A stretch of 64,000 nt of DNA from Treponema sp. CETP13 (GTDB lineage: Bacteria > Spirochaetota > Spirochaetia > Treponematales > Treponemataceae). The stretch is taken from the NCBI GenBank assembly GCA_001885315.1, contig MLPZ01000005.1, forward strand, positions 62,001-126,000, in the 5' to 3' direction. A program made the translations under genes and the position numbers. A model generated the notes under the pieces. The model had not been told where the DNA came from, did not search any database, and saw only the letters and a list, made by a program, of their open reading frames with translations. Of the stretch, positions 28,624-30,301 are shown in pieces (position 1 is the first letter of the stretch; the number at the start of each line of letters is the position of its first letter).

Positions 28624-28652
28624 TTGACAGAACTACTATATATTTATATAGT
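28624..28652 (+). promoter_or_regulatory. Promoter of umuD'-umuC
   Basis: TTGACA (28624-28629), 17 bases, TATAGT (28647-28652); the ATG follows ten bases later with no SD. The spacer and -10 are covered by a 26-base inverted repeat. Confidence 0.8.
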
Positions 28653-28656
28653 AGTT
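28631..28656. promoter_or_regulatory. 26-base inverted repeat, LexA-box-like operator
   Basis: Arms AACTACTATATA (28631-28642) and TATATAGTAGTT (28645-28656), each 12 bases, around a TT centre, placed exactly between and over the -35 and -10 boxes. The inner TACT-N12-AGTA matches the E. coli LexA box apart from the G/C of the CTGT and ACAG cores. A repressor site is inferred. Confidence 0.7.
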
Positions 28657-28662
28657 ATTACT

Positions 28663-29028
28663 ATGAATACGACTGGATTCCCTTCTCCTGCACAAGGATA
28701 TGAAGAAAAAACATTTGATTTTAACGATATTATCGTAAAGCATCCTGCTGCAACTTTTACAATGCGCTATAAAGGGTCTGACCTTAAACGCTATAATATT
28801 TTGTATGGAGATATGATTATTGTTGACTGTGCTATCTCCCCTGCTGTAGGTAAACTTGCTGTTATAAAAAAAGATAGTAAATTTATTTGTCGTGAACTCA
28901 TAGATGTTAAAATAATTAATAACAAAAAAGTGTATACCTATATAAATGAACACAACAATACCGACACATGCACTGAAATCTTTGGCTGTGTAAGTTCTTT
29001 GGTGAGGACGTATGATTTTTCACGTTGA
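28663..29028 (+). CDS. UmuD'-like Pol V accessory protein lacking the protease dyad
   Basis: A 121-residue homologue of UmuD. It begins MNTTGFPSPAQGYEEK, so it starts four residues before the glycine that begins processed E. coli UmuD' (GFPSPAADY). A gapless alignment recalled from E. coli UmuD places Asp40 at the Ser60 nucleophile (GSDLK against GDSMI) and Arg77 at Lys97 (FICREL against FTVKKL). Both catalytic residues of the S24 self-cleavage reaction are thus lost, and the cleavable N-terminal arm is missing. It would act as ready-made UmuD' with UmuC in translesion synthesis. The ATG at 28663 is used because an upstream start would precede the promoter -10. It overlaps umuC by 17 bases. 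Confidence 0.85.
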   Translation: MNTTGFPSPAQGYEEKTFDFNDIIVKHPAATFTMRYKGSDLKRYNILYGDMIIVDCAISPAVGKLAVIKKDSKFICRELIDVKIINNKKVYTYINEHNNTDTCTEIFGCVSSLVRTYDFSR

Positions 29029-30301
29029 TGGCAACGGATTCTATGCTGCCTGTGAAGCCCTTTTTAGACCAGATTTAACTGATAAACCTATAGCTGTACT
29101 TTCAAACAATGACGGCATTACGATTGCCTTAAATCAAAGCTGTAAAGACTTAGGATTTAAGCGTGGAGACAGATACTTCGAGATGAAATATCTATATCAA
29201 AAAAAAGGGGTAACAGTTTTTAGTTCAAACTACACACTATATGCAGATATGTGTACTCGAATAAACATGATTTATAACAGTTTTTGTCCTGATGTAGAAA
29301 TGTATTCAATAGATGAGAGCTTTTTATTCTTTCCTAATTGGACAAATGTAAACTGGAATGAGTTAGGTCATACGCTTAGAAACGAAGTTGCCAAACAATT
29401 ACATTTACCAGTCTCTGTTGGCATTGCCCCGACAAAAACACTTGCCAAAATGTGTAACAAACTTGCCAAACATAGAGGTGGCGTTTGTTATTGGAGAGAT
29501 CTTAATACTGATGAAGAATTAAAAAAGTATGCAGTGAAGGATATCTGGGGAATTGGTCGCTCAAAAACTCTTTTATTAGCGAGACTAAACATTAAAACCG
29601 CGTATGATTTAAAGCATTTTCCACTTCATAAAGCTAAAAAACAATTAACTATTCAAGGATTTAAGACCGTACAAGAATTAAACGAAATTTGTGCAATAGA
29701 TAAGATACAGGATCCTACAAGAAAAAATATTACTTGCTCAAAAAGCTTTGCCCACGGAGTAAGTTCTTTAATAGAATTAGAAACTGCTCTTGCTGAATAT
29801 GTGCAACTAGCAGTAACTCGTATGAGAGAAGAAGGCTCAGCTTGTAAATTTGTCATGGTCTATATAATGACAGCTCGTTCTTACGATGAAGATAAAAAAG
29901 ATAAAGAGTATTTTAATGGAGCAACGACACAACTTCCCTTTTCTACTAGCTATGTAACAATTATTCTTAAAACGGCAACTTCCTTATTACATTCTTTATA
30001 CCGACCACAATATACATATCGAAAAGTAATGATAAACTTACTTGGCCTTGAAAAAGACATAACAATACAACCCGATTTATTTGAAACTGAAACAAAAGAA
30101 CAACGAGAAAAGCATAAAGCAATTATGGCAGCTTGCGAACATATAAACACAAAATATGGCCGTGGCTGCTTGCATACCGGTACAAGAAATCAAATTAAAG
30201 ATACACAAGCTAATGGCAAAAAAGCAGATTGGATTATGCAACGAAACCTTCTCTCTCCAAAATATACCACAAATTTATCTGATATTCCTGTAGTCTACTA
30301 A
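29012..30301 (+). CDS. umuC: Y-family DNA polymerase V catalytic subunit UmuC
   Basis: A 429-residue error-prone translesion polymerase. The catalytic acidic residues lie in IFHVDGNGFYAACEALFRPDL (first Asp) and YSIDESFLFFP (Asp-Glu), with the SNNDG and KTLAKMCNKLAKH elements and the helix-hairpin-helix VKDIWGIGRSKTLLLARLNIKTAYDL. A UmuC-type C-terminal region follows, ending in the conserved NLSPKYTTNLSDIPVV-like stretch. It starts inside the UmuD'-like gene (17-base overlap), so the two are translationally coupled. No phage or integron context is seen. Confidence 0.93.
   Translation: MIFHVDGNGFYAACEALFRPDLTDKPIAVLSNNDGITIALNQSCKDLGFKRGDRYFEMKYLYQKKGVTVFSSNYTLYADMCTRINMIYNSFCPDVEMYSIDESFLFFPNWTNVNWNELGHTLRNEVAKQLHLPVSVGIAPTKTLAKMCNKLAKHRGGVCYWRDLNTDEELKKYAVKDIWGIGRSKTLLLARLNIKTAYDLKHFPLHKAKKQLTIQGFKTVQELNEICAIDKIQDPTRKNITCSKSFAHGVSSLIELETALAEYVQLAVTRMREEGSACKFVMVYIMTARSYDEDKKDKEYFNGATTQLPFSTSYVTIILKTATSLLHSLYRPQYTYRKVMINLLGLEKDITIQPDLFETETKEQREKHKAIMAACEHINTKYGRGCLHTGTRNQIKDTQANGKKADWIMQRNLLSPKYTTNLSDIPVVY

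Follow-up and report, generated by a model that had tools for sequence, protein, structure and literature searches.

How is mutagenic DNA synthesis kept in check at a locus whose UmuD homologue appears to be made in its processed form from the outset? Self-cleavage of UmuD is slow in E. coli and is regarded as a timer by which mutagenic repair is postponed until accurate repair has been tried, and the intact protein is credited with a role in a damage checkpoint and with directing the degradation of UmuD'. The question is raised by a gene at positions 28663–29028 (forward strand) of the window, i.e., the whole stretch of 64,000 nucleotides from Treponema sp. CETP13 that was analyzed here. A preliminary description of this DNA had proposed that the gene product possesses neither a cleavable arm nor a catalytic dyad and that all control of Pol V had been shifted to transcription and to UmuC.

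A UmuD Homologue of Processed Length

The open reading frame extends from an ATG at 28663 to a stop codon at 29026–29028 and encodes 121 amino acids, the length of a processed UmuD homologue. Homology to UmuD' is evident in both sequence and fold. The protein matches the Peptidase_S24 family (PF00717; E = 3.9e-8) and the UmuD model NF007621 (E = 2.3e-21), the latter with 76 bits, which lies under the curated cut-off of 110. An AlphaFold2 model (pLDDT 87.7, with a confident core) adopts the UmuD' fold, its top structural match being UmuD' in 1ay9_A (Z = 12.4, rmsd 2.8, 101 residues), and a further match is UmuD in 8gmt (Z = 11.8, rmsd 2.5, 91 residues). With the curated HumD model NF051876 a score of 50 bits was obtained, under the cut-off of 120; the protein would work like HumD, yet it is not filed as HumD.

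A phmmer comparison with E. coli UmuD' (1umu_A; E = 1.8e-13) covers residues 5–81 without a gap and thus places Gly5 on Gly25, Asp40 on Ser60, and Arg77 on Lys97. This pairing was read from the sequence alignment, as the structure tools print no residue pairs, and it reproduces the gapless alignment from which the preliminary description had concluded that the protein begins four residues ahead of the Gly of UmuD' and carries Asp and Arg at the two catalytic positions. The GFPSPA motif, the N-terminal end of processed UmuD', occupies residues 5–10 (codons at 28675–28692, forward strand) and is near-invariant among relatives. Where a cleavable UmuD has a pro-segment of some 24 residues and a Cys-Gly or Ala-Gly bond, only four residues stand ahead of Gly5 here, the last of them being Thr. 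Likewise, the Ser60-Lys97 dyad is absent: the codon at the position of the nucleophile (28780–28782, forward strand) specifies Asp40 and the codon at the position of the general base (28891–28893, forward strand) specifies Arg77.

Distribution Among Treponema Relatives and Other Bacteria

Judged from the aligned homologues, the armless, dyad-less state is common to Treponema and its relatives and not peculiar to the window protein, and the core of the preliminary description is borne out by these comparative data. Proteins of the window's family and of the named Treponema genomes, which include isolates (T. bryantii, strains JC4 and C6A8, and Breznakiella homolactica), start within a few residues of GFPSP, the exceptions being L015 and L016; the 24-residue pro-segment is absent in these relatives, isolates included. 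Position 60 is occupied by D, Q, E, G, A, R, H, N, K or T, with Ser kept in only a few cases (L015, L135, L060/L188, and L199), and position 97 by R, H, V, G, S or N, with Lys in L125 only. A “mini” subfamily of about 101–105 amino acids has lost the segment bearing position 97. In other spirochaete families, 11 to more than 30 residues precede an Ala-, Cys-, Ser- or Thr-Gly bond, and Ser plus either Lys or Arg is nearly always present. The UmuD proteins of Halomonas and of most cyanobacteria are armed with an intact dyad. Proteins of Calothrix, Rivularia, and Richelia start with MSA-GFPSPA and carry Ala at position 60, and a protein from Leptolyngbyaceae starts with MSGFPSPA and carries Leu there. 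Nostocales cyanobacteria have lost arm and dyad separately from Treponema.

The UmuD and UmuC tree comprised 92 rows, of which 90 non-redundant homologues were scored (L103 and L109 were left out); the arm coding was set by hand for L056 (GTG start), L016 (GFPSP lost), and L093 (nearest Met inside the arm). Fifty-three of the scored homologues are armless with a dead dyad, 33 are armed and intact, three are armless and intact, and one is armed and dead. Well-supported branches call for two or more separate changes of the armless-dead state, in Treponema and in cyanobacteria, and the best tree needs six. The association of arm loss with dyad loss is strong but rests on few independent events: an independent-pairs test on the tree yielded too few pairs for significance. 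Among the exceptions, HumD of the P1 group (L044/L045) is armless with Ser and Lys in place, L092 retains the dyad together with a stub of at most 11 residues, and in L135 Ser60 is paired with Arg at position 97. These exceptions suggest that arm loss may have come first and dyad decay after, and the P1-like HumD indicates that arm loss does not force dyad loss. The contigs of the relatives were searched with an alignment lacking L015 and L016, a single-protein query having given no matches; a second-look alignment was used for the UmuD' and LexA rows only, and families missing there may still exist.

Several members of the family depart from the common pattern. In L015 and L016 (genus g6 of the family) the GFPSPA arm itself is gone and the proteins start with MKENxTAG, yet dN/dS is 0.09, a sign of purifying selection. 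In family f50 (L064, L066, L070, and L072) the proteins are armed; L064 retains Lys97, whereas the other three have Arg there together with Ser60, and slow or pH-dependent cleavage, as an intermediate state, is possible for the Ser60-Arg97 proteins. L299, from the cyanobacterial genome G654, combines an apparent arm and an Ala-Gly bond with Ala in place of Ser60 and Arg in place of Lys97, and may be a non-cleavable pro-UmuD or have an unrecognized short start. Frameshifted or truncated umuD' copies occur in two relatives, G017 (L018/L022) and G352 (L108).

Hidden Start Codons, Shifted Catalytic Residues, and Gene Decay

An ordinary pro-UmuD with a cleavable arm might still be produced if translation began upstream of the annotated ATG, at TTG 28624 or at a non-standard codon. 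The reading frame is indeed open for 41 codons 5' of the ATG, and the TTG at 28624, the lone start codon in this region, is in frame. However, this triplet is the first of the −35 hexamer of the best promoter of the region, a ribosome site is absent before it, and the 13-residue product would be read from the palindrome described below and is without counterpart in relatives. Because the frame of many relatives is interrupted by a stop codon no more than 15 codons from the Gly, a hidden arm is contradicted by comparison as well, and any arm could not be removed by self-cleavage without a dyad; this reading is extremely improbable. Hardly any more credence can be given to a shifted or replaced center, formed by Ser39 or by the conserved Cys76 with Arg77, that cleaves something else, e.g., a repressor or LexA in trans. 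Ser39 adjoins Asp40, and many long-form proteins conserve the Cys and Arg of the CRE(L) motif. Yet the equivalent of position 39 (E. coli position 59) is S, D, G, T, N, K, V, E or A, no conserved Lys is found in the family, and the CRE(L) segment is wholly absent from the mini-form proteins. A working Ser39 nucleophile, already doubted in the preliminary description for want of a Lys, is not supported by these comparisons, nor is the use of another Lys. It is also very unlikely that the gene is a decaying remnant whose arm and dyad were lost as UmuD function was no longer needed, a view that can draw on the lost catalytic residues and on the damaged copies of a few relatives. Against it stand dN/dS values of 0.04–0.11 in close Treponema pairs (0.21 in a cyanobacterial pair), the retention of the gene by several tens of species, an intact overlapping umuC, and the GFPSPA motif, which is invariant among 27 aligned homologues. 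Residue 60 drifts within close pairs (S to G, Q to H, and S to N) despite this purifying selection. Models of Pol V place the N-terminal arm of UmuD' in the UmuC cleft, and UmuD' without this arm is inactive in mutagenesis (PMC11791011).

The umuC gene (29012–30301, forward strand) encodes 429 amino acids and overlaps umuD' by 17 nt. Its product shows IMS, IMS_C, and the C-terminal UmuC domain (DUF4113; E = 5.4e-14) at full coverage, and scores 286 bits with the UmuC model PRK03609, under the curated cut-off of 431. The acidic catalytic residues, the clamp motif QPDLF, and a C-terminal tail, RNLLSPKYTT, can be read from the translation, and we take this tail to resemble the UmuD'-binding tail of E. 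coli UmuC. As the clamp motif and the RecA/UmuD' tail are kept, activation of Pol V by RecA-ATP is presumably still in place. A separate DinB is also present in this genome.

Promoter, Palindrome, and Repressors

Upstream of umuD', a sigma-70-type promoter was identified at 28624–28652 (forward strand; 11 of 12 matches), consisting of the −35 hexamer TTGACA (28624–28629), a spacer of 17 bp, and the −10 hexamer TATAGT. The latter ends 10 nt before the ATG, a spacing common to several relatives, and from this position the mRNA is predicted to be leaderless or nearly so, with a leader of about 3–4 nt. Spacer and −10 hexamer are spanned by a perfect palindrome with 12-bp arms, AACTACTATATA-TT-TATATAGTAGTT (28631–28656), a candidate operator. 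No second exact copy of the palindrome exists in the genome; perfect palindromes of this type occur in the window, Breznakiella, L140, L144, and L193.

In the related spirochaetes, a divergent HTH-S24 repressor of about 180–260 amino acids lies beside umuD' in 41 of 68 loci, typically 30–140 nt before the gene. The Ala-Gly bond, the GDSM motif with its Ser, and the Lys are kept in all 40 distinct neighbor repressors (40/40). Two sequence types can be distinguished: MDAExFWxKVK... beside the mini-forms and ...KKAFAESLGIHP... beside the long forms. Clade-specific palindromes, namely ATAAGCATTTTGCTTAT, AAATAACnnnnnGTTATTT, AATACTCATTTGAGTATT, and TGTAATCATTTGATTACA, are found at many of the promoters with such a neighbor. 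In T. bryantii B25 (L217, 1231–3267), a second S24 repressor forms an apparent operon with a different Y-family polymerase of 462 amino acids. No divergent S24 repressor was found beside umuD' in the window, and the only S24 proteins of this genome are UmuD' and LexA, the latter being canonical (Ala-Gly, GDSM, and Lys present) and encoded in an hprK-ptsH-lexA operon. The element TACTATA/TATAGTA occurs in 19 of 27 promoters without a neighbor repressor vs. none of 38 with one (Fisher p = 2e-10, with kinship of loci not corrected for), and the consensus of the aligned neighbor-less promoters is TACTATACATnTGTATAGTA. As TATAGT doubles as the −10 hexamer, conservation of the motif may in part reflect the promoter and not an operator.

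LexA is the likeliest regulator of umuD'C in the window, acting at the candidate operator, and is put forward as a hypothesis, because neither recA nor a visible SOS set is preceded by a further copy of the tight palindrome. A strict LexA regulon with a tight 20-bp palindrome was considered and rejected: genome-wide matches are at chance level, the umuD' copy being the best. A dedicated regulator other than LexA could act at the palindrome, or expression could be constitutive, with the hard-wired UmuD' retained and DNA damage not the main signal. The uniqueness of the exact palindrome, the lack of a clear SOS regulon with the same tight motif, and the motif-less recA promoter would favor this possibility, which we consider rather unlikely. 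Both this genome and most of the relatives examined carry the half-site TGTATAGTA a few nucleotides ahead of hprK, and hence ahead of the lexA operon, with a fuller palindrome in G011 (L233), and the relatives that lack the motif have RecA-type cleavable repressors instead; these findings speak against this possibility.

In its own genome, TRTATAGTA lies near the start codon of few real genes, namely umuD', hprK, a gene divergent from mraZ, and two others. A near-perfect palindrome of the umuD' type, TATTATACGTCTGTATAGTA, is located on contig C3 of G000 (L260/L026; site 1501–1520), between mraZ, which starts a division and cell-wall cluster, and a divergent gene of 270 amino acids, for which no Pfam match was found in the 150 residues searched. 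Damage-linked control of division genes via this site is possible.

A Model for the Control of Pol V

We consider it probable that UmuD' is constitutively processed at this locus and that RecA-triggered autoproteolysis acts only through repressors. The umuD' gene would yield UmuD' directly, for it lacks the N-terminal pro-segment by which ordinary UmuD conceals the end that binds UmuC. Once translated, the protein would dimerize, insert the GFPSPA arm into its UmuC partner, and assemble Pol V. It is proposed that the Ser-Lys dyad decayed because there was nothing left to cut. The RecA-nucleoprotein signal would be sensed at a single upstream step, by the self-cleaving S24 repressor that holds the operon off: in many relatives this would be the dedicated divergent neighbor, and in the present genome most likely LexA, bound at the palindrome over the umuD' promoter. 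Homology, the missing arm and dyad, their repeated joint loss across the clade, purifying selection, the intact UmuC, the cleavable neighbor repressors, and the palindromes over promoters are computational results; Pol V activity, the role of LexA, and RecA-driven derepression are what we infer. Control seems to have moved from UmuD self-cleavage to the promoter, as the preliminary description had held, a view supported by the promoter palindrome, the cleavable neighbor repressors, and the intact LexA. Its wording of “all control” was too strong, given the clamp motif and the RecA/UmuD' tail of UmuC.

On balance, we lean towards a broader interpretation in which Pol V control was rewired across the clade. 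The polymerase subunit would have shed RecA-stimulated autoproteolysis through the joint loss of arm and dyad, and repressors alone would have retained it, be it LexA or a recruited self-cleaving neighbor of at least two types among Treponema relatives. From the independent loss in Nostocales it would follow that SOS mutagenesis can do without its post-translational step and that this step was discarded more than once. An entire bacterial lineage lacking self-cleavage would constitute a natural experiment on the importance of the timer, and an operon of UmuD' and UmuC with a single transcriptional switch would offer a clean system for the study of Pol V. For such proteins, the label “autoproteolytic subunit” on the matching database model would be wrong.

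Comparison With Known Systems

With E. coli UmuD and Pol V (UmuD'2C), the window protein shares the fold, the GFPSPA arm, the operon with UmuC, and a probable role as dimeric partner. It differs in that residues 1–24 of E. coli UmuD are removed by RecA-stimulated autocleavage through Ser60 and Lys97, neither feature being present here. A close likeness in form is HumD of phage P1 and of relatives such as RCS47, a UmuD homologue that begins at the processed end (M-GFPSPA) and that is referred to as an already activated UmuD, an exception, in a passage of PMC7092418 citing McLenigan (1999). However, HumD keeps both Ser and Lys, which the window protein has lost, and is a phage gene without an adjoining umuC, whereas the window gene is chromosomal and overlaps umuC.

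The neighbor repressors of the Treponema relatives follow the same logic as FddR-dinB of Francisella, where a divergent phage-like S24 repressor controls a Y-family polymerase (PMC13148647). There, the partner is DinB or an unknown gene and not a UmuD' lacking its own switch, and LexA of Francisella is said to be highly diverged (PMC13148647), in contrast to the canonical LexA kept by the Treponema genomes examined. In Acinetobacter, UmuDAb is a UmuD turned self-cleaving repressor (PMC11332147; PMC8565304), and UmuD and repressor roles were likewise rewired around umuDC promoters; UmuD gained a repressor role in that case, whereas in Treponema it lost self-cleavage, which separate repressors keep. 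In the open-access literature, no description was found of a hard-wired UmuD' in spirochaetes or cyanobacteria, or of a chromosomal lineage in which UmuD' is fixed by loss of arm and dyad and the switch resides only in repressors. An armless UmuD' is known from phage P1 HumD, and it is the dead dyad, the clade-wide fixation, and the outsourced switch that look new.
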